The notes: generated by a model from the letters alone, not told the origin. Shown: positions 18,045 through 36,440, numbered from the stretch's first letter. The stretch: 64,000 bases of DNA from Ferroplasma sp. (GCF_031200575.1 NZ_CP133597.1:1426001-1490000), one strand, 5' to 3'. Numbers and translations: made by a program.

Positions 18045-18386
18045 CTAAAGATAATTTATAACCAAGGCAACGCATATATAAATAAATCCATCTATGATAA
18101 AAATTAGTGTCATTATTAACTGCTGACGATTTATATACTTAACATCAAATTCTCCTACTGGTTTTCCCTCTTCCATAACCTCTCTAAGATAATTTCTAGC
18201 ACCGAAATCCCACCAGGCCCCGAAAAAGAATATGATAAAAGCTGATAAAAAAATAATTAATGGCATTGTACCGCGATAATCAAAGGATTTATAAAAGTAA
18301 AATGGTAACGGTGCCAGCATAATAGCTAATAAAATTATAAGTGGGATGATCGCAAATTTTAGTCTGATTTTAGCTGTATTGTTCAT
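18045..18386 (-). CDS. Small membrane protein at the end of the peptide ABC operon
   Basis: A 113-aa protein with three predicted helices (about 11-32, 41-59 and 92-112) separated by a charged segment YLREVMEEGKPVGEFDVKYI. Its start lies 17 bases inside the end of the ATPase gene, so it is translationally coupled to the transporter operon. The family is unknown. The position suggests a transporter accessory subunit, but a chance passenger gene is possible. The IS with 15-bp repeats begins 17 bases beyond its stop. Confidence 0.6.
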   Translation of the reverse strand: MNNTAKIRLKFAIIPLIILLAIMLAPLPFYFYKSFDYRGTMPLIIFLSAFIIFFFGAWWDFGARNYLREVMEEGKPVGEFDVKYINRQQLIMTLIFIIDGFIYICVALVINYL

Positions 18387-20487
18387 TTTTTAAATGCTCT
18401 AATTCGTTTTCAGCAAAATGACATTTATACCAGTGATCTCCACGTGACTTTATAGGTGGTACAGTGTTTTTGCATATATTTTGCCTATATACACAGCGAT
18501 CATAAAATCTGCATCCCTTCGGGATATCAATGGAATTGCCTATTTCTCCTATGATGTCAATATGGCCTGGATTCCATGACGGTTCAGGGTTTGGAACAGA
18601 CTTTATTAATGCTTTAGTGTATGGGTGTAGTGGTAATTTTATAATGTCATCAGCTTTTCCACCTTCTACCATGGAACCTAGGTACATTACATAAATTCTA
18701 TCTGCGAGGTAGTAAACAGAAGCAATGTCATGTGAAATATATAAAATCGACATTCCGCGCTCTATCCTTATTTTATTAAGTCTGTTCATGAATGAAGCCC
18801 TTAAAGATACGTCAAGCATTGATGTGGGTTCATCGGCTACGATAAATTTAGAGTTTATAACTGTTGCTCTGGCGATTCCAACCCTCTGCTTTTCACCTCC
18901 TGAGAGCTCATACGGAAATCTATCCATATATGATTCTACAGGGAAAAGATCAGCGTTAGCAATTGATAATTTTACTGCTTCTTGCATTTCCATGACATCC
19001 TTAGTTATATGATTTCCTATCATGGGCTCTGAAACCGTATTGAAAACTGTCATTTTTGGATTTAATGAATCGAATGGATCTTGGAATATCATCTGAGTAT
19101 TTTTCCTAAATTCTATGTAATCTTTATGATTTGGCTTCATTTTATTTACATATACAACATTATTTTCATCGAGGTAATATTTAATATCACCAGAAGTTGG
19201 TTTTAAAAGACCAATCAAAAGACGTGCAAGTGTGCTTTTGCCAGATCCAGATTCACCCACCAGGCCTACTATTTCACCCTCCCTAATCTCCATACTTACA
19301 TCGCTTACTGCATGTACTGTTGGTTTCTCCTTCGAATATAAAGAAGAAATAATATTTTTCTTTAAATCGAAATTTTTAGTTAGATGTTCTACCTCTATTA
19401 ATTTGGTATTTTTAATGTAATTATGCCCGAAATTTGGAGGTTTTGGGTAGTTCTCTTTGATATTTTTGGCAAAATAGCATCTACTGTAATGTACACTATC
19501 TATATACTGCGGCTCAGGTTCTTCAGTTGTACATATAGAATCTTTCATGTAACACCTGTCTGCGAATTTACAGCCAATAGGTAATCTAGACGGATCGGGC
19601 AATCTTCCAGGTATGCCTTCAACATGCTGTTTCGCATTGGATAAGTTTGGATAACTCTTTAGTAATTCTATTGTATAGGGATTGTGTGAATTCTTATATA
19701 TGTCAGAAACGGTTCCATATTCCATTATGCCTCCTGCATAAAGCACAGCGATTTTATCTGCTAACTGTGATACTACACCAATATCATGGGATATTATAAT
19801 GAAAGATTTTATTCTTCCTGTTTGTTTTAACCTCTTCAAAGTTGCAATAATCTCAGCCTGAGTTATTACGTCCAGACCAGTTGTTGGTTCATCTGCTATA
19901 ACAATTTTGGGATTCAGGGCAAGAGCCATAGCTATAACAGCTCTCTGCTTCATTCCTCCAGATAGTTCGTGTGGGTATGAATCCTTAACAGCAGGAGTGA
20001 GCCCCGCGTCTTTCAGAAGTTCGACAATCTTTTTATCTATCTGCTGCTTATTCAAATCTGTATGTAGCCTGAATACTTCCCCTATCTGGCGACCTATAGT
20101 ATATACTGGATTAAATGAATTCATTGCCCCTTGAAAAACCATGGAAATATCTTTCCATCTCATATTTCTTAATTTTTGGTCTAGAATTTTCATTCTTTTC
20201 CTATCCTTAGGTTTTGTGCTACTGTCAACGTATTTATCGTCATATAACGATATTGACCCTGTAGTTATAGCATTCTCAGGTAAGAGTGACAAGATTGCAA
20301 GGGCGATGGTACTTTTTCCAGAACCTGATTCTCCAAGTATGCCGAGTGATTCCCCCTCTTTTATTTGTAGATTAACATCTCTAACAGCCTTAACCAGACC
20401 ACCATAAACCTTAAAGTCAATATTCAAATTTTTAATATCAAGGAGTACACTCCCTCTATGATACATACTTTCTTCTTGTTCGATCAT
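18370..20487 (-). CDS. Peptide ABC transporter, fused double ATP-binding protein (DppD-DppF type)
   Basis: Two complete ABC ATPase domains lie in one 705-aa chain. The first has Walker A GESGSGKST at residues 52-60, signature LSGGMKQRAVIAMA and Walker B IVIADEPTTGLD. The second has Walker A GESGSGKST near 412-420, signature LSGGEKQRVGIARA and FIVADEPTSMLD. Each is followed by an oligopeptide-transporter C-terminal module with Cys residues (IGCKFADRCYMKDSICTTEE and CRFYDRCVYRQNICK). Separate genes are usual; the fusion fixes a heterodimer in one chain. The start overlaps the permease stop by four bases. Confidence 0.92.
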   Translation of the reverse strand: MIEQEESMYHRGSVLLDIKNLNIDFKVYGGLVKAVRDVNLQIKEGESLGILGESGSGKSTIALAILSLLPENAITTGSISLYDDKYVDSSTKPKDRKRMKILDQKLRNMRWKDISMVFQGAMNSFNPVYTIGRQIGEVFRLHTDLNKQQIDKKIVELLKDAGLTPAVKDSYPHELSGGMKQRAVIAMALALNPKIVIADEPTTGLDVITQAEIIATLKRLKQTGRIKSFIIISHDIGVVSQLADKIAVLYAGGIMEYGTVSDIYKNSHNPYTIELLKSYPNLSNAKQHVEGIPGRLPDPSRLPIGCKFADRCYMKDSICTTEEPEPQYIDSVHYSRCYFAKNIKENYPKPPNFGHNYIKNTKLIEVEHLTKNFDLKKNIISSLYSKEKPTVHAVSDVSMEIREGEIVGLVGESGSGKSTLARLLIGLLKPTSGDIKYYLDENNVVYVNKMKPNHKDYIEFRKNTQMIFQDPFDSLNPKMTVFNTVSEPMIGNHITKDVMEMQEAVKLSIANADLFPVESYMDRFPYELSGGEKQRVGIARATVINSKFIVADEPTSMLDVSLRASFMNRLNKIRIERGMSILYISHDIASVYYLADRIYVMYLGSMVEGGKADDIIKLPLHPYTKALIKSVPNPEPSWNPGHIDIIGEIGNSIDIPKGCRFYDRCVYRQNICKNTVPPIKSRGDHWYKCHFAENELEHLKNEQYS

Positions 20488-22664
20488 TTTCTACCACCTA
20501 ATGTTGGATTTGCGACCTCATCTATACCCCTAGAAATGAATATAAACGCCAGTATGAATAGGGTGAGTGCCGCTATTGGAGGTATAGTAGCATACGGATA
20601 AACTGATATAGAATAGAAATCTCCTAGAAATGAACTAAGCATTCCGCCCCATGTAGGTATAGCTACGCTAACTAGACCGAGAATTTCAAAAGTAGAGACA
20701 GCCGCAACAGCACCCCCAATATTAATCGCAGTCAGATATACCAGCAATGTCCCCATATTTGGGATAAAATGACGTTTCATTATGCTCAATGTCTTCATAT
20801 TTGATACCTTGGCCGATTCTACAAATGTCCTCGTTTTAACACTTCTTACAATACCTATAAGGGAGAAAGTTACAAACGGCCAACCAAGCAATGAAAATAT
20901 GAATATGAGGTTAAGAAGTGATGGACCCAATACAGATGCGAGTACTATGAATAACGGTAATGTTGGTATTAGGAATATAGAAAGTGCCAAAGTTTCCATA
21001 AAAGAACTCACCAGTCCAGAATAATACCCAATAAACATTGCTACCACCAATGATATTAGTATGGTCATAATTCCTGCCGCAAAGCCCACTTCAAGATCTG
21101 GTGGGAAACTATCAATAAATAATGCAAATACATTATCATGGGCTATATTAGTTCCCAATGGTAACGGGATACCTGATACAGTATGTAAGGTTGGCCCTAT
21201 TACTATAGGAATCCCCTCAAAACTGTCAAAAATAATATTATTACCATTTAAATATGCAATAGTAGGAGATTCTGCATCTGTGACGTTTTTTCCAACTTTA
21301 AATCCATAAGGTTCTTCAAAGAGTATTGGAGTACCTATAGGTGCTTTTAGATTGGAATGCCATGAATATGGATATTTTTGGAATGGGCTTATTAAATATA
21401 TCATTTGCCCAGTAGTAGTATTGGTAAGCAAGAATTTACCACTATGATAATATTCAATATTATTAACACCGAAGGGCAATTTAATTTGATTTACAGCCTG
21501 TAATACCCCTGCTTTTGATTTTTCTAGCGCATAATAATAATTACCAGAGGATATAATTAGATCTGATGGAAAACCGCTAGACCCGCTGCTTACACCAACC
21601 GAACTTATGTCTTTAGAAGCTGTGTATATCTTATTCATCGATCCATTCTTTAAGTTTATAGTATATAGCGAATTATTTGATGCTGTAAAAGCATCATGAG
21701 TTCCGGCTACATCCTGGTAGGCTCTAGGAATTTCAAGTTTCCCTACATCAAAAGAGTATCTGGCATTAAATTCCATGCTACCATTTACTTCATAAGCAGC
21801 AACACTTTTCCCCTCTGTAACTATAACGATCGGACGTGAAGTGGTTAAGTAATTATCACCCAAAAAGTAAATATGAGGTGTGCCAGCTAATTCTAGCTTG
21901 TGAGACCACAATTCATGTAAGTTATAACTGTAATATTCATTTAAATATCTACCAGTATTATTTTGTATTACTGCATATGTATATGAACCGTATGGGGATA
22001 CTGTTGAGGTATTTGTAGGTCCCATAAATTCATCAGTTATAGCTTGGGGTTGTACGAATCTTAAATTGTTTGTACTGACAGTTGCTGTTATGATTGTTCC
22101 ATTAACAGAAGCCTGTGCAATCTGGTTTGCTTTAACTGAAGTTCCAGAAGAAGAACATATCGCCTGATAAACATATAAGCTATTATTTGTCGACGCAAAA
22201 ATATCAGTTTCAAATGATAAAGTTGTTGGATTCTCAGGAGAGAAAGCCTTCAAGCTAGTGATTGAGCCATTGGTTTTAAATAGTAAACAGCTCTTTCCAC
22301 TATCATTCGCTGTAATTGCAAATATCCCATACTGCCCCCCAGTTTTACCACCAGTAAATAGGTAATAGTTACCTGCCTTGTGTTCGCCAACTGAAGCAGA
22401 AATCTGATTCAAGCTATTTTCCACGGTAAAATTTAGTTTCTTATCCTCTATAGTTAGTGGTTTAAAATAGTCTTCCGATGGAACAGCGCTAAAAGGGTTA
22501 CCGTGTACGAGTACAGGAGCGAGTAGCGCAATTATTATAAATGCTATTAATATATAAAAACCGGCTTTACCGTACCATGATCTATAAAAGACTTTAAATT
22601 GTTTTCCGAAATTCTTTAATTTAAACTGAATGTTATCCTTTAAAATTTTTTTATTCGTTTTCAT
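20484..22664 (-). CDS. dppC: Peptide ABC transporter permease (DppC type) with a large extracellular insertion
   Basis: The start is set at ATG 22664, which overlaps the upstream permease stop as ATGA and has Shine-Dalgarno aagggtga; an earlier ATG would extend into the upstream gene. Residues 35-54 form the first membrane helix. Residues about 65-500 are a soluble, Asn/Ser/Gly/Tyr-rich, all-beta-looking region with repeated segments (NNSLYVYQ, NNSLYTIN, SGNYYYALEKS) resembling a PQQ/WD-type propeller. Normal DppC has about 40-60 residues here. From LPLGTNIAHDNVFA (501) the standard permease core resumes with five helices and the coupling loop VESAKVSNMKTLSIMKRHF. Topology puts the insertion outside the cell. 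Confidence 0.85.
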   Translation of the reverse strand: MKTNKKILKDNIQFKLKNFGKQFKVFYRSWYGKAGFYILIAFIIIALLAPVLVHGNPFSAVPSEDYFKPLTIEDKKLNFTVENSLNQISASVGEHKAGNYYLFTGGKTGGQYGIFAITANDSGKSCLLFKTNGSITSLKAFSPENPTTLSFETDIFASTNNSLYVYQAICSSSGTSVKANQIAQASVNGTIITATVSTNNLRFVQPQAITDEFMGPTNTSTVSPYGSYTYAVIQNNTGRYLNEYYSYNLHELWSHKLELAGTPHIYFLGDNYLTTSRPIVIVTEGKSVAAYEVNGSMEFNARYSFDVGKLEIPRAYQDVAGTHDAFTASNNSLYTINLKNGSMNKIYTASKDISSVGVSSGSSGFPSDLIISSGNYYYALEKSKAGVLQAVNQIKLPFGVNNIEYYHSGKFLLTNTTTGQMIYLISPFQKYPYSWHSNLKAPIGTPILFEEPYGFKVGKNVTDAESPTIAYLNGNNIIFDSFEGIPIVIGPTLHTVSGIPLPLGTNIAHDNVFALFIDSFPPDLEVGFAAGIMTILISLVVAMFIGYYSGLVSSFMETLALSIFLIPTLPLFIVLASVLGPSLLNLIFIFSLLGWPFVTFSLIGIVRSVKTRTFVESAKVSNMKTLSIMKRHFIPNMGTLLVYLTAINIGGAVAAVSTFEILGLVSVAIPTWGGMLSSFLGDFYSISVYPYATIPPIAALTLFILAFIFISRGIDEVANPTLGGRK

Positions 22665-23650
22665 ACTCTCACCCTTGGGTCTAACCATGCGTGTATAAAA
22701 TCTACTGAAGAATACGACACAATAACAACTAAAGATAAGATAAATAATGATGCTTCTATAACAGGATAATTCTCAATCAAAATGTTATCATATAATAGTA
22801 TGCCCATACCCGGTATTTCAAAAATTATACCTGTTATCACTGCACCACTCATAAGAAGGGCAAACTCGAGAGCCATTCGGGTTGATTCTGGAACCATAGC
22901 ATTTCTTGCGGCATGGTGAAACATAATTGACGATTGAGCTACCCCTTTAGCCTTAGCCGTTTGTATGAAATCTTCTCCTAATACGGATACCATAATACTC
23001 CTCATAGTAATTAAGTGGCCCATAATTTCAATAATTAAAAGAGTTAGAATTGGCATTGCAAAATAGTGTAATAAAACAAGAAAACCACTGAATGAAGGTG
23101 ATCTAAGAAATGGCCCTAATCTATAATGAGAAGCAGCTAATGGAAATATAGGATAATAAACAGCAAAAATTAGATATACTATTATAGCCATTACAAAAAA
23201 TGGGATGGAGTTTAATATTGTTGCAGTGACTAATGTAGGGCCTTCAGATTTTTTCCCTCTAATAAATGCAGTTACTATCCCTAATGGTATACCAATAGCG
23301 AATGAGCCAACTGACGCAACTCCAAAGATGATCAGTGTATATGGAAGTGCAGTTGCTATCATTGAGTAAATACTTTGGCTTAATTCAGCCGGATTATAGC
23401 CGAAATGAAATGTGAACATTTGGTGCAAATATACTAAAAATGAACTAAGGGCAAATTTATTATTAGGATTTATACCATACATTTTGTAAATACTATTTAT
23501 GGCTGCTTTAGTAGGATGCTTTAAATTACGGATATATAACTCGGCAGGATTACCAGGCATTAACCGTAATAGGACATATAAGATTACTACTACAAACAAT
23601 ATCAAAAATACTGCTTGTAATACTTTTCTACTAATAAGGTACACATTCAT
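22661..23650 (-). CDS. dppB: Peptide ABC transporter permease (DppB type)
   Basis: A six-helix permease of 329 aa from ATG 23650 (a TTG one codon upstream is less likely). LMPGNPAELYI near residue 29 and the coupling loop EDFIQTAKAKGVAQSSIM identify the DppB half of dipeptide/oligopeptide importers. The final segment ends SSVDFIHAWLDPRVRV, the usual DppB tail. It leads the minus-strand operon dppB-dppC-ATPase-small membrane protein. The binding protein gene lies upstream at 26.2-30.1 kb, now separated from it by two broken IS elements. Confidence 0.92.
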   Translation of the reverse strand: MNVYLISRKVLQAVFLILFVVVILYVLLRLMPGNPAELYIRNLKHPTKAAINSIYKMYGINPNNKFALSSFLVYLHQMFTFHFGYNPAELSQSIYSMIATALPYTLIIFGVASVGSFAIGIPLGIVTAFIRGKKSEGPTLVTATILNSIPFFVMAIIVYLIFAVYYPIFPLAASHYRLGPFLRSPSFSGFLVLLHYFAMPILTLLIIEIMGHLITMRSIMVSVLGEDFIQTAKAKGVAQSSIMFHHAARNAMVPESTRMALEFALLMSGAVITGIIFEIPGMGILLYDNILIENYPVIEASLFILSLVVIVSYSSVDFIHAWLDPRVRV

Positions 23651-23899
23651 CAAGTATCAATGGTGCAATTCATATTATTTATAAAAACCTTTTGGAAAGC
23701 GAATTTATTATTTTAATTACCAATGTCTTATATTAAAAGGCTTCTCTCCATATTCTTTTTATATTGCTCCTTAAATATTTCCTATGTATGCCCAATAAAA
23801 ATATAAGAAGAGAATACAAGCCAAGAATGAAGTGATAATGTAATACTTTCACTGTAAATTGAAAATGACTCTTTGCAATATCATAATGAGGTAAACAAA

Positions 23900-24882
23900 A
23901 TGACAAATGCAAAGAGTCAATTAATAAGTATAGAAGAACTAATAAAGCTTTTCATAAATGATAGAAAAGAGGGAAAGAAGGAATTGATTACATGGTTTTT
24001 AAACAATGTAATGGATCAGGAGGCCATTGAACAATTAAATGCTGATAAATATGAAAGGAATAATAAAAGGACAGGATACAGGAATGGGACAAAGAAGAGG
24101 AAATTAAAGACTGTGGATGGAGAATTAACATTAGACAAGCCTGATATAAGGTCAGGTTTATTCACAACCACTGTATTTGACAAGTATTCAACTGTAGAAA
24201 AGGCTTTAGACTCTGTAATAGCTGAGTCATACATTAATGGAGTATTAACCAGGTCAGTAAACAATATAATAAATAATCTGGGTGTAAATGTATCTCCTGA
24301 GTATGTATCATCACTGAATAAGGAACTTGATGCCAAGGTTAAAGAGTTCCTGGAAACAAGGATAGATGATAAATAAGATACCTGTACATAGATGCAATAT
24401 ACTTTAAAGTCAGGGAAAATAGTAAATACAGACCAATGGCATTATACACATCAATAGTTGTAAACAGCAATGGAATAAGGCAGATTCTTTCCATGGATGT
24501 TTATAATTCAGAGGATGAGCTGGACTTGAATAATTTCTTCTTCAAGCTCCAGGAAAGGGGATTGACAGGTCTTAAATCTGTAATATCAGATGGTCATAAT
24601 GGTATAATGAAATCTATTAAGGAATCGTTCCCAGGATCATTATGGCAGTACTGCCATTTCCATTTCATAAGGAATTTAAGGAAGACCATGGAAAGGGAAC
24701 AGTGGAAGAATATATCAAAGTTAGTGCCAGAGGCATTAATGGATGAATCACTGTTTAAGATAGCAATAGATAGAATGGAGGAAATGAAATTAAATAAATC
24801 CATTGACATGCTGTATAAGTGGTATGATTCATTATATTCATACACATCATTCCCTGGAGAACATCAAGGAAAGAAATCATGA
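23900..24882 (+). pseudogene. Broken IS256/Mutator-type transposase
   Basis: The first frame runs from ATG 23900 (Shine-Dalgarno gaggt) to a stop at 24374-24376 and matches the N-terminal half of IS256 transposases (YERNNKRTGYRNGTKKRKL and a first Asp region). The second frame picks up at once as RYLYIDAIYFKVREN, then LKSVISDGHNGIMKSI (second Asp) and CHFHFIRNL, and ends at 24880 after FPGEHQGKKS. A one-base frameshift near 24376 and loss of the C-terminal quarter, including the catalytic Glu region, make it inactive. The IS110-type element follows directly and does not resume IS256 sequence on its far side, so a deletion accompanied or followed its arrival. Confidence 0.8.
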
Positions 24883-24892
24883 AAAACCTTAT

Positions 24893-25079
24893 TTAGCCTC
24901 AGCTATATGACGATATAGCTGTGAGAATCGAAGGCGGTTGTTATGCAGCTTGACCCTTGAGGCCGTTAGAAAGAATAGCCGCCCTTCGACTCGATTTCTT
25001 ACCTCATTAACATCTAATAAGGTGAATAGGAGTTTGTCGAGTCTACGATTCTAAATCTCACAGAATCAGAGGCGATTAA
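24893..25079 (+). ncRNA. Structured left end of an IS110-type element, candidate bridge RNA
   Basis: 187 non-coding bases before an IS110-family recombinase frame. AGCTATAT GACG ATATAGCT (24901-24920) is a perfect 8-bp hairpin. CGAAGGCGG (24929-24937) pairs with CCGCCCTTCG (24979-24988) with one bulge, closing a loop of about 41 nt. GATTCT and AGAATC (25047-25052, 25062-25067) form a third stem. IS110-group elements are known to carry a bridge RNA between the left end and the recombinase gene, with loops pairing to target and donor DNA. The position and folding fit. Loop-to-target pairing was not established. Confidence 0.4.
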
Positions 25080-25981
25080 ATGGTAAGCGGCTTGGATGTA
25101 CATAAACGTTCCGTATATGCTACGGCTATGGAGGATAATGTGGCTCTTATTGTCCAGAGGAATATGGAGAATAATATAGAGGTGGTTAATGGATTTTTAT
25201 TTAATTACAGGGATCATGATATTGTAATAGAATCATCAACATCAGGCAAGTATCTCTCTAAGGAGTTGTCAATGCTTGGCTATAAGGTTCACCTGATAAA
25301 TCCTGCAAAGGTTCCTGAAATAGCAAATAACTGCAAGAAGACAGACAGGGAGGATTCATTCCAGCTTGCAGATGTATTCAGGAAGGGAGGAATGAAGGAG
25401 ATATACATTCTATCAGGAGATATAGAGAATGTAAGGTCCCTGGTAAGGTACAGGCATTCACTTGGAGGGGAGATAACATTAAAGAAGAATAAGGCACATG
25501 CACTGTTAACATCCTATGGAATAATAATTAAGGCTACAGACCCGTTCGGTAAGAAGGGATTAAGGGAAATTGAAAATAATTATAACAATCTTAATTATTC
25601 TGATAAGATAGTCTTAAGATCCTTAATAATGACATATCATTTATTAAGGAAAGATTTGCATCATACACCGGTTTAATACCTAGGGAGCATTCATCTGGTG
25701 AAAAGGCAATAAAGGGCCATATAACAAAGCATGGTCCATCATTATTAAGATTCTTTTTGGTTGAAACAGTACATTCATTAATAAAGTATACAAGGAAATT
25801 TAAATCAAAATATCTTAGCATGGTAAGAAGATTGGGAAAGAAAAGATCTATAATAGCAAGAATATTAGCAGAAACAATCTATGCAATGTTAAAAAACAAT
25901 GTAAGATACATTGAAAGGGAAAGAGGTGAAACAGCCAATCCTGATGAATTTATATATAGCGAGTCTACTTTGTTATACTGA
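25080..25981 (+). pseudogene. IS110-family DEDD recombinase with internal deletion
   Basis: The first frame (198 codons) holds the RuvC-like DEDD domain: GLDVHKRSVYATA (Asp), VIESSTSGKYL (Glu) and KKTDREDSFQLADVF (Asp-Asp pair). At about 25650 the frame changes without the usual 50-70 residue linker, and the C-terminal Tnp20-type domain follows in another frame: RFASYTGLIPREHSSGEKA then KGHITKHGPSLL with the Ser/Gly-rich active-site loop. An out-of-frame deletion joined the two, so the protein is dead. Both catalytic domains are otherwise well preserved, suggesting recent inactivation. The element's right end is near 25990. Confidence 0.85.
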
Positions 25982-26243: not shown

Positions 26244-29200
26244 TTATGTCTTTTGTTTTTTTCTTTTTGTTATAAAGAAGAGTCCAAGTCCAATGACAAC
26301 TATGGCAGCTATTACCCCACCTATGATGTAATAGTCTGTATAATTGGATATACTCTTGAATGTAACATCCACAGTTTGGTTAGAGCCGTTTATGGTTACA
26401 TTACCTGAACTATTCTTTAGTATTTTGTATCCAGATATGTTTCCCACTTTATAAACATATGTTCCATTTAGCTCTGCAAATACTATTTTGGAGGTGGATG
26501 ACTTTTCAGTGACCCCATTTAGTGCTACAGACCATGTGGTTCCAGATCTCAATCCACTTTCTGCAAATGTCACATTATACATATATTCTATCTGATTTTG
26601 TTGTAAATTAGTAGTTTGGATTGCTACAGCTCCATCTCCATACGCGGTTATCTGGAATTCATCATATGGGAGTATCGAACTATTAACAGTTTCTGGCATT
26701 ATGACTCCAGTAGTCTTGTTGTACTGATAGAACTCTGATGTGAAATTCGCATATGCGATTCCATTTGCATTGGTTACTAAATGTATAGCAGGTTCAAATC
26801 CACTGCCAGTAGCAGGCCCACAGGTTGTTAATAACAAACCATTCGGGTTTGACATTGACATATTTGAATTCAGGAAGTAACCTCTGTTTGCACCCAGCGC
26901 ATTTTGAGAGCTTACATTCAAACTGTATCCTGCAACAGCTTTCCCATTATCAGTTACCTTATACATCAGCTCTGTTACTTTAGAAGATATCTGTTTCTGG
27001 CTTACTGATATAGCATAACTATTTGGGGATTTCTCCAGCTCTATTGGAAGTTCAACTGGTTCCCCGGACCCATACCCGTTTGGATTCTCTGAGGATGTCA
27101 CCTCACCGATTACCATATAGGGAGCTTCACCGTATACCGGGGCGTCTAGAGCATAATCTCCTAGGTATATATACTGTAATACATTAGCCCCATTCAGTGT
27201 ATAATTGAAAGTTGAATTTACGGCAATTAACACAGATATGTTTCCATTTGCACCAGTCTGGCCCGTTATAGATGTCATCATAGTGCTATTGTATGTACTA
27301 TTTACTGGTATAGATACTTCTGTGTAATCACATAATGCACTGTAAGTACTTACATTAGAGATGCTTTGGACCGAAGACGTTCTTTTCATTGTAATGGCTG
27401 CCCGCATAGCCTGTATAGTATATTCATAACCTGAGATAGGTTTACCTGTTATCGGATTATATACTGTTATATTGTAATAATTATATCCAGTTCCAGAGAT
27501 TGCAGAAGGTCCTGATACTTTGTATGCTACACTGTGAGGTAGATCATTTACGTTGACTATTCCTATTCCAGAGGCTATGCTTGTGTTAGTAGGAACCACT
27601 GTAGCTGTCACCGGTACTAATCCATTGTATCCAAGTACATTAATGAAGGAGTTATCAGGCGAGACCTGGAATTTATACACTGCCATACCTTGGCTATTAG
27701 TGGTAAGTGTGTACGAAGTTATATTCAGCAGTGATGGTTCCTCTGTAACTGTCACCTTAGCCCCGGATATAGGATTTCCGTTCAAACTGTTAGTGGCTAT
27801 ATAAGTTATTTGACCGTACTGTCCATCGGTATATACAGTCTGATTCGCATACCCAGTAACCACTACATGTGCAGTTGGTTTAGATATTACCGTGGGCTTG
27901 CTTTTCAGATGAACTGACATTTCATTATAATACCAGAACCCGTTTATATCTGACGGCACGTCAGTTATGCCCGTAAATGTACTGGTTTGCCATGCTATAT
28001 TGTCCTTGGGCCCGTATCCAATAGGCATCATAGTAGACTCATTATCCTCTATATATTGCATCACGTCCATTGCAGACACAACTGTGCGGACGCTAGAGGA
28101 AGAAGTTGCTATATTGGTTAAATTAGTCATTAACGAATCTATCTGTTTGCCAGTCATGTATGTATCAGGTATATTGAATATACTATTTAATGGCGTGGTT
28201 ACATTCATGCCAGAAAATGGCCCCTGATAGTCTCCTGTGCCTATAGAGGAGGAATAGTTGTAGTCATCTATTACATCTACAGCCGTATCTCCAAGGAGAC
28301 CAGATACTCCAAGCGTTATTATATTATAGGATGTAGACGGGCTCGCACCAGCGTTATCATATGCATCTAAATGTGTAATCTCAGTTGAAAAGCTTTCAGA
28401 CTCGATTGTAGTAGCTATACCTATCTTATCCCAGTCTGAAGCGATGGCCTCGTAACCGGTAAATATCTGTGGTATAAGGGATGAGGATGGAGATTGTATT
28501 GTCGCTGTTACCTCTGTGCCTTTATAATACCAATGCCCGCCCTTATATGTCATTCCCGGTATACTGGCTATGGTGCTATTAGCCTTTGACGGGTTATATG
28601 AAAATGATGGTACAGCCGAATAGTAGTAAGGAGAATCTATTGCAGGTATGGTAGAATAACCTGGCGTAAGATACCCGTCACAAATTGACGACTGTATGTA
28701 ACCAAGGGGAGATGCCATTCTCAATGCCTGTCTGAATGCAGTAATATTGTATGGTGCGTCATCTGCATATGAGTTAAATTTGAAATATGCATATCCAGTA
28801 GAAGGTTTTTCCAGTACATTAACGCCAGGAATCCCCTCAACTGTTGGTAAAAACTCACTAGATAAATCGCTTTCTATTGCATCGACTTTCCCGGTACTTA
28901 AAGCCCCAACAGCTCCTGAAGGACTAGCGTAAATAGATACATTTACACTATATATTTTTGGAGCAAACTGGCTTACATCATATACAGGATTAGGGCTAAC
29001 TGGTAATGCATCATTTATGCTATTACTAATAGTTCTCAAAAAGAAATGCGGATTAACATAAACAGACCAGTAATCGCTGGTAAATAAATGCCCTACGGGT
29101 TCGCCAAATCCACCATTCATCATGAATGGGCCAGTACCAACAAGTCCCGGATATAGCCCATTTCCTGTACCGAATGCTCCGCTATGCCCCATGTCCCATT

Positions 29201-31079: not shown

Positions 31080-32016
31080 GTGAGTTCAGTGGATGAAATG
31101 GATAATAATGGAATAAAAATAAAAAATGCATGTTATTATTCTGGAATAAATAGAATAACATACTGTTACAGGAAGAAGCATGAAAGCATTGAAGACAGCA
31201 GATATATAACAAGGATTGACAGCAGCATTATTAGTAAAATAATAGAGCTATGCAGGGAAAGAGTAACCTATGGCTATAACAGGATATACATTATTAAGGA
31301 ATTCTGGCACAAGAATAGCCAAGAAGACCGTGTATAAGATAATGAAAAATAATAATCTAACCTTGCCAGTGCATAGCCATAAGAATAGAAGGGAACTGAA
31401 GCTGTTAAGAGCCGACAGGCCTAAAATGCTCATAGAAACAGATATAACATATATTCCAACAAACAATGGAATGGCATATTTAATGTGCATAAAGGATGTG
31501 TTCTCTAAAGAATGGTATGGCTATAGCTATAATACATCATGCACTTCGAGGGATGCAATAAATGCCATGGATGATTCCATTATGCGGAAGTTCAATGGTA
31601 TAATACCAGAGAATATTACATTAAGAACAGATAATGGTCCACAGTATATCTCTAGGGAATTCAATAATTATTTGAAAACAATGGGGATTAACCATGAATA
31701 CATAGAAAGGGAAACACCTGAGGAGAATGGAGATATTGAATCATTCCATAATTCAAAAAAGACAGATTATATATGGATCAATGAAATCAATAATTTCAAT
31801 GATGGCAAGGAAATAATAGAGAATGCATTCCATGATTATAACAGTATAAGGCCCCATTCCACATTAGATTACTATTCACCATTGCAGTTTCTTGACAAAT
31901 GGAACAATGACAGCAGCTTCAGGGAGTATTACAGAGCATTCTTAAAGAATTTAAAGGATGGCTACAGAAGGAGAAAGCATAATTATTATAGGAGGTCGAT
32001 GCTCAATGTCTCATGA
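31080..32016 (+). pseudogene. IS3-family OrfB integrase, frameshifted
   Basis: The N-terminal helix-turn-helix part reads in one frame up to ELCRERVTYGYNRIY. The retroviral-integrase part continues in another as TLLRNSGTRIAKKTVYKIMK. A two-base loss near 31290 explains the join. The DDE triad is present: IETDITYIP, LRTDNGPQYIS and the ERETPEENGDIESFHNSKK region with Glu, followed by the typical YNSIRPHSTLDYYSP end. Only a frameshift separates it from an active protein, so the copy is recent. An assembly error should be ruled out. Confidence 0.85.
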
Positions 32017-32353: not shown

Positions 32354-35300
32354 ATGTACAGATATCTAATGTATCCTGACATTAAGGATGATATGATAGT
32401 CTTTGTGAATGATAACGATCTTTGGTCTTATAATCTGACAACGAAAGTACCTGAAAGACTGACAAATAATCTAGGTATAGTCACATTTCCAAGGATCAGC
32501 CCCGATAAAAAATTAGTGTACTTTAGGTTGATGACTGGAAAATCAGCTGATAATTCCGATATATATTCAGTTGAACTTGATTCTGGGAAACTTAGACGAA
32601 TTACATATGTTTTCGGCAAAAGCGTGAGTAGGAGAATGTACACATCTATTGCTGGTTTTGACGATGAGAATAAATTAATTGTATCTACAGATGCCTATTA
32701 TCCTTTCGGAACTCCCATGCTTTATAGAGTGGAAAACGGTAATTTATATGCGTTGAATTTGGGACCTGCTCTGAACATCATATACAACGATGACAATATA
32801 TTTCTAGGCAGGAATACAATAGATATGCCACATTGGAAGCATTATAGAGGAGGCACACGTGGGAAGATACTTTCCGGGAAAAAAGGGAATTTCAAAATAT
32901 TAGTTGACCTAGAATCCAACGTAAATTCACCTATGATATACAATGATAAATTATGTTTTATTTCTGATCACGAGGGATCAGGAAATATCTATTCCATGTC
33001 AACCGAAGGAAAACTGATAAAAATAACTGATTTCGGAGATTACTATGTTAGAAATGCAAATTCTGATGGGAAAAGCATAATTTTTCAGAAAGCCGGTTCA
33101 TTGTTTTTAATACGTGATGGTAATGTATCAGAACTCAATATTGAAATAAATATACCTTCGGTCAATACTGAGATGAGGATGTTAAAAGCTGTAGACTATT
33201 TAACAGGATATGATTTGAATTATTCCGGTGAAATGATGGCTTTAACAGCACGTGGCCAGGTTATCTATACCGGTATAAAAGGCGGTCCGATAGTAACTGT
33301 AAGCCCTTTGAAAAACCAGATAGCAAAAATATCAAGAAATGACTTAATCATTTACAGATACTCTGAAAATGAGAATTTGATTTTAATATACGGTTTAAAC
33401 AATGAAATCATAAAGAGCTTCAATTTTGATAAAGGAATTGTTGTAAATATGAAAGTCTCTCCAGATGGCAAAAAAATTGCAATTTCTAACAACAGATTTG
33501 AGTTATTTATATTGGCTCTGGATAACGACAAAATAGAAAAAATCGATGAAAGCCAATCTGATACCTTGGTTGATTGTTCATGGTCCAACGATTCAAGGCT
33601 TCTGGCATATTCGTTCCCGGAATCGGCTTATTTCGGATACAATGGTAGCAGTTATATAAAAATATATGACAGTGTAGATAAAAAGTTATACAGATGTACC
33701 ACATCAGGTTCGGTAGACTTCAAGCCGGTTTTTAGCATGGACGATAATTATTTGTATTACCTATCAAAGAGATCACTTGATCCTGTCATGGATCAGCTTG
33801 TTTTTAACTTAGGATACCCTGCTATAACAAAACCATATGCATTATCGTTGAAAGGAAACAGCATGCCGATTTTTTCAGATATCCCAGAAGATCTTGCCAA
33901 AAAAGTGGAAGATAAATATTTACTTAATGATATAGTTAGATTTAGCCAGGTATTTCCTGTGGAAGCTATGGATTATGTTGATATTTACCCTGTTGATGGT
34001 GGTGTACTTTTACTTCATATGCCTGTTGAAGGAGCCATGAAAAGTTATTTATTCAACAATGGAGAAAAATCTGGGCAATTACAGTTGTTCAGCTTTAAAA
34101 CCAATAAAGCCGAATCATATGAGGAGGGTACTGTTAGCTTCTGCGTCTCTGGAAATGGTAAATATCTTATGATTAGAAAACCAGGGAATAAATTTCTAAA
34201 AAGAGAAATAAGCACGAAAAAGGATGAGGACATAAATATAGATAGGCTGAAGCTGACAGTTAACCCCAAGGAAGAGTGGAAGAATATGCTATACGATGCT
34301 TATAAACTCATAAATGAAAATTTCTGGAGTAAGGAAAAGCTCAGAATGATGGGCGATGAACCTTATATTAAATATAAAAAACTCCTAGATAAGGTGAGCT
34401 GCAGATTTGAACTTTCAGATATTTTGCGTGAAATGCAGGGCGAATATGGCACTTCCCATTCCTATGAGATCGGAGGAGATTTATCTGAAGTTGAATCAAA
34501 AACAATAGGGAAACTTGGCATAGATTACACCTACGAGGGTGGAAAGTATATAATAAAGAAAATATATAGTGGTGATTTATCTAATGAAAATGAGAAATCC
34601 CCGTTGCTTTATACTGATATTAAAGAAAATGATATTTTAAAATCCATAAATGGTATAGAACTGAACGAGGATTATAATCCTGACAGGGCATTATTAAACC
34701 ATTCAGAGGAAATTATAAGGATAGAAATTCAGAGAAATAATAACATAAAAAGTTATTTTGTAAAAACCCTGAGTGATGAAAAATATTTGAGATACCGCAA
34801 TTTCGTTGAAACTAATAGAGAATATGTGCATAGAATTACAGGGGAGAAGGTGGGCTACATACATATTCCTGATATGGGTATGAATGGTTATAACGAATTT
34901 TTCCGGCTTTACGACCGTGAATCCAACAGAGAAGCATTAATTGTTGACTTAAGATTCAATGGTGGTGGCTTTGTTTCACAGCTCCTCTTGGAAAAAATTG
35001 CCAGAAGAAGAATAGGATATGACGTGCCAAGGCGTGGGATTATTACACCCTATCCTGTTGATTCGGTTGATGGACCACTGGTTGCACTCACAAATGAATA
35101 CGCTGGGTCCGATGGCGACATAGGAACTCATGTATTCAAACTCATGCATCTTGGTAAAGTTATAGGCACCAGAACATGGGGCGGGGTTGTCGGAATAAAT
35201 CCTAAAATTAAGCTGCTAGACGGAACGATTGTAACACAGCCACAGTTTGCAACGTGGTTCTCCGACGTTAAATATGGCCTGGAAAACTATGGAACCGATC

Positions 35301-35425
35301 CTGATATAAATGTTGAGTATATGCCACAGGATTTCCTTAAAAATAAGGACCCACAGTTAGAAAAAGGCATTGAACTTGCGCTGGAGGAAATTAAGACATA
35401 CACAAAACTTAATTTGGACAAGTAA
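32354..35425 (+). CDS. tri: Tricorn protease
   Basis: A cytosolic giant hexameric protease that trims oligopeptides from the proteasome or from uptake to di- to tetrapeptides. Two N-terminal beta-propellers (about 1-280 and 290-630, with segments such as KKLVYFRLMTG and DGKKIAISNNRFELF) feed a mixed C-terminal catalytic part. The catalytic Ser-His pair lies in YGTSHSYE (Ser701, His702). A PDZ domain follows (YTDIKENDILKSINGIEL). The nucleophile is Ser919 in YAGSDGDIG, matching Ser965 of the Thermoplasma enzyme. The acidic C-terminal part with DPQLEKGIELALEE is present. At 1023 aa it is slightly shorter than the Thermoplasma protein (1071). It lies in the peptide-uptake island, consistent with a joint function. 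Confidence 0.95.
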   Translation: MYRYLMYPDIKDDMIVFVNDNDLWSYNLTTKVPERLTNNLGIVTFPRISPDKKLVYFRLMTGKSADNSDIYSVELDSGKLRRITYVFGKSVSRRMYTSIAGFDDENKLIVSTDAYYPFGTPMLYRVENGNLYALNLGPALNIIYNDDNIFLGRNTIDMPHWKHYRGGTRGKILSGKKGNFKILVDLESNVNSPMIYNDKLCFISDHEGSGNIYSMSTEGKLIKITDFGDYYVRNANSDGKSIIFQKAGSLFLIRDGNVSELNIEINIPSVNTEMRMLKAVDYLTGYDLNYSGEMMALTARGQVIYTGIKGGPIVTVSPLKNQIAKISRNDLIIYRYSENENLILIYGLNNEIIKSFNFDKGIVVNMKVSPDGKKIAISNNRFELFILALDNDKIEKIDESQSDTLVDCSWSNDSRLLAYSFPESAYFGYNGSSYIKIYDSVDKKLYRCTTSGSVDFKPVFSMDDNYLYYLSKRSLDPVMDQLVFNLGYPAITKPYALSLKGNSMPIFSDIPEDLAKKVEDKYLLNDIVRFSQVFPVEAMDYVDIYPVDGGVLLLHMPVEGAMKSYLFNNGEKSGQLQLFSFKTNKAESYEEGTVSFCVSGNGKYLMIRKPGNKFLKREISTKKDEDINIDRLKLTVNPKEEWKNMLYDAYKLINENFWSKEKLRMMGDEPYIKYKKLLDKVSCRFELSDILREMQGEYGTSHSYEIGGDLSEVESKTIGKLGIDYTYEGGKYIIKKIYSGDLSNENEKSPLLYTDIKENDILKSINGIELNEDYNPDRALLNHSEEIIRIEIQRNNNIKSYFVKTLSDEKYLRYRNFVETNREYVHRITGEKVGYIHIPDMGMNGYNEFFRLYDRESNREALIVDLRFNGGGFVSQLLLEKIARRRIGYDVPRRGIITPYPVDSVDGPLVALTNEYAGSDGDIGTHVFKLMHLGKVIGTRTWGGVVGINPKIKLLDGTIVTQPQFATWFSDVKYGLENYGTDPDINVEYMPQDFLKNKDPQLEKGIELALEEIKTYTKLNLDK

Positions 35426-35499: not shown

Positions 35500-36440
35500 C
35501 CCATATATATCTATTGTTCCTTAACATTTAACTTACCTCCCTTTTCTTCATATGCCATGGCAGGTGTTACAACCGGCCTTCCATCTATGGATAATGACAT
35601 ATGCCTTCTCCTATAATTATAGTAATATATTACCTCCTCCCAGGTGGAGAAGTATGGCTTCAATGGCTTTACTGTACCATTCAACCTCTCTAACTTCCCA
35701 TTGGTCTGTGGATGATCCACCCTTCCTAATATATGCTTTATATTGTTATTATCAAGGTATTCCTGGAACTTATTATGGTCTCCATGTATACCATTCTTTC
35801 CATTTGAAAAGAACTGTGTACCATGGTCTGTTAATATTTCTAATGATTTACCGTATAACCCTATTGCATGCACCAGTGTTTCTACTGTATTGCCTATTGT
35901 TTCCTCTTCATATATTCTAAATCCCACTATGAACCTTGAAGCATCATCCTCTATGATGATTAGCCTCTCTTTATCACTGTAATTAGACCAGTCAATATGC
36001 CACAGTGTATTGCTGTGCTTCCTCTCATGCTTTACATACTTCCTCTGCTTTTTCCTGTTAATACTCTGGTCTACCATATTATATTTCAACAATACCCTGT
36101 ATATAATATTGTGGGATACTTTAATTCCTGATTCCATAAGGCAGTTCTCTATTGCCATAGGCCCTGACAGTGGATGGGTATTTCTTATACCTATTATGAG
36201 TTCCTCAGTATATTCATCTATAACCTTTGTCTTCCTTCCAGGACTGTATAACTCTGTTTTACCGTAGTTGATGTAATTGTAATAGATCTTATTGATATAT
36301 CCTGTACTTACCCTGTATATTGCTGCTAATTCAGCAGATGATACTCCTTTCTTTTTCTGATTTATTATGTATTTTAATTTCTTATTGTTTAACTTCACCC
36401 TGGGTTGAGCATTTCTATCTATATTTAAGTGGTCTTTAAA
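35500..36440 (-). mobile_element. IS481-type element, apparently intact
   Basis: A complete transposase with short flanks; exact ends were not resolved. Sequence upstream of the gene (about 36,340-36,435) is repeated, inverted, at 16690-16792. On the other side CTTTTGCATTTATCCTG at 35474-35490 is identical to 16800-16816, an end of the neighbouring IS4/IS701-like element, so a solo IS end lies beside it. Confidence 0.6.
35511..36398 (-). CDS. IS481-family transposase
   Basis: A 295-aa protein starting at GTG 36398 with Shine-Dalgarno cagggtg overlapping it. An N-terminal helix-turn-helix (GVSSAELAAIYRVSTGYINK) and a second DNA-binding region precede a retroviral-integrase catalytic core: LWHIDWSNY (Asp), LEILTDHGTQF (Asp) and GKLERLNGTVKPL (Glu). 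The YNYRRRHMSLSIDGRPVV end is typical. No frameshift is visible. It is the only transposase in the island that looks functional. Confidence 0.88.
   Translation of the reverse strand: MKLNNKKLKYIINQKKKGVSSAELAAIYRVSTGYINKIYYNYINYGKTELYSPGRKTKVIDEYTEELIIGIRNTHPLSGPMAIENCLMESGIKVSHNIIYRVLLKYNMVDQSINRKKQRKYVKHERKHSNTLWHIDWSNYSDKERLIIIEDDASRFIVGFRIYEEETIGNTVETLVHAIGLYGKSLEILTDHGTQFFSNGKNGIHGDHNKFQEYLDNNNIKHILGRVDHPQTNGKLERLNGTVKPLKPYFSTWEEVIYYYNYRRRHMSLSIDGRPVVTPAMAYEEKGGKLNVKEQ

Follow-up and report, generated by a model that had tools for sequence, protein, structure and literature searches.

The window, which is the whole stretch of 64,000 nucleotides of Ferroplasma sp. DNA that was analyzed, carries the genes for an importer whose substrates are presumably peptides, judging from its family. 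The permease gene dppC is encoded with dppB, a DppD/DppF-type ATPase gene, and a nearby SBP_bac_5 gene for the substrate-binding protein (SBP). The features of the locus are listed below.

18045-18386, minus strand: small membrane protein of 113 aa, whose gene overlaps that of the ATPase at its end
18370-20487, minus strand: fused dppD-dppF ATPase, from domain matches and motifs
20484-22664, minus strand: dppC with propeller insert, in a reading frame open from the ATG at 22688
20487-21158, minus strand: canonical DppC/MetI core, with five helices and the EAA coupling loop
21159-22499, minus strand: extracellular insert (residues 64-510), composed of an AP.ED-like linker, a predicted PQQ/BamB-type beta-propeller, and a PPT..SG linker
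22506-22562, minus strand: DppC TM1 (residues 43-61 of 734), from hydropathy
22661-23653, minus strand: dppB, of ordinary length (330 aa), with a TM1-TM2 loop of about 66 residues
26244-30104, minus strand: family-5 SBP, 1286 aa, with an Ig-like stalk and a C-terminal membrane anchor
27525-27890, minus strand: Ig1, the stalk domain adjoining the SBP fold (SBP residues 739-860)

Four-base overlaps of stop and start codons link dppB to dppC and dppC to dppDF, with the ATPase gene starting within the dppC stop, and thus the three genes form one tightly packed unit. Walker A/B and signature motifs each occur twice in the fused ATPase, which also has two groups of four cysteines, spaced as in the [4Fe-4S] sites of E. 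coli. The 113-aa protein has several membrane helices and matches no Pfam family above the cut-off. A homolog occupies this position in 13 of the 13 other operons of its subclade (subclade A, defined below), and the protein is a possible further subunit of the importer. The SBP gene no longer adjoins its permease, because dppB is separated from it by fragments of two transposases (23873-25676, plus strand), one of the Mutator family, in two frames, and one of the IS110 type. Also near the importer is a Tricorn protease gene (32354-35425, plus strand), located between integrase-core reading frames at 31270-32016 and 35511-36398. The same genome has a second Dpp locus (L053:7129-13527; C1 about 1,502-1,508.5 kb) with a plain DppC of 309 aa and a dppB that is divided between two frames; upstream of it is a gene of the thermopsin family, and no SBP was found there in the stretch read.

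The minus-strand reading frame of dppC (20484-22688) encodes 734 aa from its first ATG. An earlier note on this DNA placed the start at 22664, which is probably correct since this ATG follows GGGTGA and shares the sequence ATGA with the stop codon of dppB. The protein has the MetI-type core, the six hydrophobic helices, and the EAA loop of a DppC subunit. PF00528 matches residues 547-728 (E=1.4e-8), OppC_N matches weakly at residues 32-65, and Opp4C and further OppC/DppC models match from about residue 511. According to hydropathy, no helix follows TM1 until the one at residue 535, after which there are four more, for a total of six. Solved DppC/OppC chains that match the core are 287-302 aa long and lack such an insert, and therefore the extra stretch of about 440 residues (about 64-505) sits in the extracellular TM1-TM2 loop. 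The insert faces outside, because the N terminus is rich in Lys/Arg and the EAA coupling loop falls between TM4 and TM5. Hydropathy and domain matches thereby confirm the earlier claim of a large extracellular region between the first helix and the DppC core, and the solved chains agree with the claim that a typical DppC has only a short loop at this position. The insert carries 12 N-glycosylation sequons versus 6.9 expected from its composition (p=0.025), and the DppC core carries zero.

This form of DppC is not unique to the window, but is the standard form of one Thermoplasmata DppC lineage. When 300 genomes of the class were searched, about 30 other genomes proved to have homologous full-length genes with 28-78% identity, of which nearly all lack internal stops and several come from single-contig assemblies; many further long DppC genes matched in the core only. 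In a search of 395 genomes of the phylum, propeller-sized DppCs were present only inside the class Thermoplasmata, among the matches listed, and the listed matches from outside the class are frames of 288-436 aa. No relatives were found in viral contigs. In a tree of 42 DppC cores, all 22 that come from long proteins fall on one side of one branch (support 92/96), and the propeller DppCs form two subclades: A, which has fused ATPases and includes the window, and B, which has separate ATPase genes. The insertion marks one old DppC clade, so far only within the class.

The insert is almost certainly a beta-propeller of the PQQ/BamB type, as judged by sequence homology. Inserts from subclade B match Pfam PQQ_2 (E=4e-20) and Beta-prop_ACSF4 (2e-21), and match BamB by phmmer (9e-10); the subclade-B insert profile matches many solved PQQ propellers, with natural ones from 2e-23 and BamB at 5e-16. 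The window-family and subclade-B insert profiles align over their full length, both linkers included (E=1.5e-18), and still align when the linkers are trimmed (E=5.7e-10), whereas control comparisons with the SBP Ig tail, the SBP domain, and a reversed profile all gave values of 0.15 or above. Shifted-register alignments of the same two profiles (7e-6, 3e-5, and 1e-4) are as blade-unit repeats would give, and off-diagonal self-alignments indicate internal repeats within the window-family insert (E 2e-4 to 1e-3). The window-family profile matched no solved structure in the PDB. The window's own insert is too diverged for a direct match, and its propeller homology is indirect. An AlphaFold2 model of the insert built from two sequences only (window and L032) reached pLDDT 37 and pTM 0.31. 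A CCL2 lectin-like Pfam hint on the window insert (E=0.005, below the family cut-off) was dropped as probable chance. Some inserts are larger, including that of L039 (1095-3485), where the DppC insert includes a Kelch propeller (Pfam E=2e-34), and those of L034:1158-3818 and L035:2856-5531, which carry a run of 'PxIAYYDxxxxxLKxA'-type repeats.

The earlier description of the region as beta-rich and propeller-like is supported by the homology of related inserts to PQQ/BamB-type propellers, and the survey of DppC homologs it proposed has revealed the insertion in about 30 other Thermoplasmata genomes. The two refutations it had named, a separate gene joined by misassembly and a disordered linker, can be set aside because homologous genes occur in those genomes. 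The same architecture, nearly always free of stops, recurs in separately assembled genomes, on which grounds a misassembled or split gene was rejected, and homology to folded propellers contradicts a linker. The probability of an artefact of either sort is negligible.

The surroundings of DppC genes with and without the propeller were compared over stretches of at most 20 kb. An SBP was detected in 26 propeller operons, and in all 26 it has the Ig1 domain, which is absent from the 41 other operons. This domain is the element common to all propeller-type SBPs, and is the first domain of an Ig-like stalk that connects the SBP fold to the C-terminal membrane anchor; Pfam names the stalk domain Big_1 in several of these proteins. 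Sequences from subclade A went into the Ig1 model, so the pairing is tested independently only by the operons outside that subclade, of which 12 of 12 have the domain. Ten genomes (G067, G122, G024, G082, G089, G148, G206, G059, G249, and G027) carry both kinds of importer. Two of the 41 non-propeller operons have PKD-tailed SBPs (L120, with a short DppC, and L097, with a PKD-DppC). The SBPs of propeller operons are 866-1848 aa long, with one more cut by a contig end, and those of a first set of 20 short-DppC operons are 563-664 aa. Propeller and stalk trace to one branch, and their co-occurrence, which amounts to about one event, may reflect a single evolutionary event. Therefore, neither the counts nor a Mann-Whitney p of 7e-8 is to be read as a statistical test. 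Nonetheless, co-occurrence of the insertion with Ig-tailed SBPs, which the earlier note had raised, is borne out, and the pairing in every operon checked suggests that the propeller and the Ig-stalked SBP work together.

Given these observations, the importer is a type-I system of the Opp/Dpp family, and there is about an even chance that the TM1-TM2 propeller of its DppC serves as an outer platform that docks or positions the stalked SBP. The insert lies on the SBP-facing side of the permease, where it would offer a surface for protein-protein contacts on the outside of the translocator and would hold or position the membrane-tethered SBP via its stalk, its body, or both. The held SBP would stay beside the channel, swing onto the ordinary docking site formed by the DppB scoop loop and DppC, and deliver peptides there. 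Ordinary docking and transport are likely retained in the window importer because its DppB loop is of ordinary length and its ATPase keeps the Walker, signature, and Fe-S cysteine motifs, and so the propeller would be additional, an extra tethering module rather than a new transport mechanism. BamB-type propellers are known scaffolds. The earlier suggestion that the domain docks the oversized SBP is favored by the contrast of 26 of 26 with 0 of 41, drawn partly from genomes that hold both importers; the direct contact of propeller and SBP, the tethering, and any effect on uptake are what we infer.

Rates of sequence change bear on this proposal in both directions. Mean pairwise identity in subclade A is 57% for the DppC core, 56% for DppB, 55% for the ATPase, 46% for the SBP domain, and 42% for Ig1, and is lowest (26%) for the insert, where a docking role might lead one to expect a conserved interface. 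Partial correlations of evolutionary distance with the insert, given the core, are 0.35 for Ig1, 0.26 for the SBP domain, 0.27 for DppB, and -0.02 for the ATPase. These values would weakly support joint change of the insert and the SBP and count for docking, as do the purely structural character of the conserved insert columns and the precedents for outer permease segments that bind SBPs; however, the correlations are weak, and that for DppB is similar. Also against docking are the five propeller operons (L073, L107, L111, L113, and L114) in which no SBP was detected in the stretch examined, and the large DppB insert that is often present in subclade B as well. Furthermore, stalk length varies widely, from 1286 aa for the whole SBP of the window to 1848 aa for that of its closest relative. 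The idea that the stalk is a ruler for propeller size was rejected, since within propeller operons longer loops in DppC and DppB go with slightly shorter SBPs, as no more than a weak trend (rho about -0.4, p about 0.08), and SBP length differs by 560 aa between close relatives. The tail of one stalked SBP (L062:13705-18870) itself has propeller-like repeats (NHL, YNCE-like, weak).

The main rival to docking, although somewhat unlikely, is that the propeller acts passively as a spacer or shield. It would then be only one of the bulky domains, interchangeable with one another, that Thermoplasmata attach to the outside of their surface proteins. Its uses would be acid protection, glycan anchoring, or envelope spacing, and the stalk would only give the SBP the reach to clear the propeller. 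Fast evolution of the insert with no conserved surface fits this explanation, as does the enrichment of sequons, and in other lineages DppC has gained PKD domains, DppB has gained Ig-like inserts, or a Kelch propeller is present in addition. However, the same fold has been kept at the same place throughout the clade despite divergence, and bulk alone does not predict a stalk because the SBP is unstalked in most operons with a PKD-DppC. Between the spacer and docking explanations, the data give no decisive answer. The PKD-type DppCs of L095, L096, L102, L103, L106, and L097 begin with a hydrophobic segment, followed by a PKD-like domain or two such domains, an extra helix, and then a complete DppC. 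Pfam confirms the PKD assignment for L095, L102, and L097, and the SBPs of this group are mostly unstalked. In subclade B, DppB often has a large TM1-TM2 insert, for a total of 460-649 aa (L068, L069, L070, L073, L074, L108, L109, L111, and L114); the insert of L070 is Ig-like.

Active roles for the propeller other than docking were also considered. Propellers often bind peptides, and this one would sit above the entry gate, such that it might bind peptides or a signal and feed or gate the channel. Among 29 homologs, only 14 of 432 insert columns are conserved, comprising Gly, Pro, Trp, and Tyr along with one Asp that lies in the linker after TM1. This structural type of conservation in a fast-evolving insert argues against catalysis or a fixed ligand pocket. 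With no polar surface residue conserved, the peptide capture or substrate sensing entertained in the earlier note is not supported. Separate family-5 SBPs are present, and the ATPase of E. coli Dpp is activated by the SBP-bound state (PMC12136057), which leaves such a role improbable. Even less probable is that the propeller anchors the importer to another surface protein, either a secreted protease, for example thermopsin, or a glycoprotein layer, which would let peptides be imported at the site of their production. There is a thermopsin gene in the window's genome, but it lies beside the second, non-propeller importer, and otherwise only the analogy with BamB scaffolds favors this role. The only gene associations found to track the propeller are the stalked SBP and, in subclade A, the small membrane protein.

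A bolder version of docking, itself somewhat unlikely, is that in Thermoplasmata the propeller permanently grips the Ig stalk of the anchored SBP to make a stable surface machine. Such a captive SBP would hand over peptides without free diffusion, and would represent another way of coupling capture to transport, in addition to fusing SBP and permease or using an SBP that is soluble or tethered by a lipid. In the usual picture of a type-I importer, the outer face is compact and is docked by an SBP that is either free or lipid-tethered. The archaeal lineage with a 440-residue propeller at this face and a stalked SBP offers a natural experiment on how SBP and translocator come together, and the comparison has a built-in control because many members carry a propeller importer and a plain one in the same genome. 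More broadly, the outside segments of Thermoplasmata Dpp permeases have repeatedly acquired domains, including PQQ propellers, Kelch propellers, Ig-like domains, and PKD domains. The parts are known, but no description of the permease-propeller combination was found in the open-licence literature searched.

There are several known systems with which this importer can be compared. The SBPs of the E. coli and M. tuberculosis peptide importers are not known to have an Ig stalk. E. coli DppABCDF and M. tuberculosis Opp/DppABCD (8z1v, 8z21, 8j5q, 8wd9) share with the window the DppB/DppC core, the EAA loop, two ATPase domains, and a family-5 SBP, and the Fe-S cysteine spacing is the same in E. coli Dpp, but their DppC chains of 287-302 aa have no propeller. 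In the E. coli system, the TM1-TM2 region of DppB (the scoop) fills the DppA cleft, and is thus likewise an outside TM1-TM2 loop of a Dpp permease subunit that docks the SBP (PMC12136057). The scoop is helical, spans about 30 residues, and belongs to DppB, and the DppB of the window keeps its own loop of ordinary length.

MalF-P2 of the maltose importer has an Ig-like fold and occupies a loop other than TM1-TM2 of DppC, whereas the insert described here is a probable propeller within that DppC loop. Similarly to what is proposed for the propeller, MalF-P2 is a large folded outside segment of a type-I permease subunit (about 180 residues, 91-271) that contacts the SBP (PMC3150292), a contact proven there and presumed here. 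The most economical reading is that the propeller is a platform that tethers or orients the stalked SBP, functionally like MalF-P2 but unrelated to it. Solved BamB and other PQQ-type propellers are homologous to subclade-B inserts at the sequence level, although BamB is a lipoprotein in its own right, working in outer-membrane assembly, and the propeller here is inserted in a permease loop. SBP-permease fusions such as GlnPQ keep the binding domain at the translocator. These fusions would serve the same end as the propeller, but in the present importer the SBP is separate and anchored, and the permease carries a propeller rather than a binding domain.
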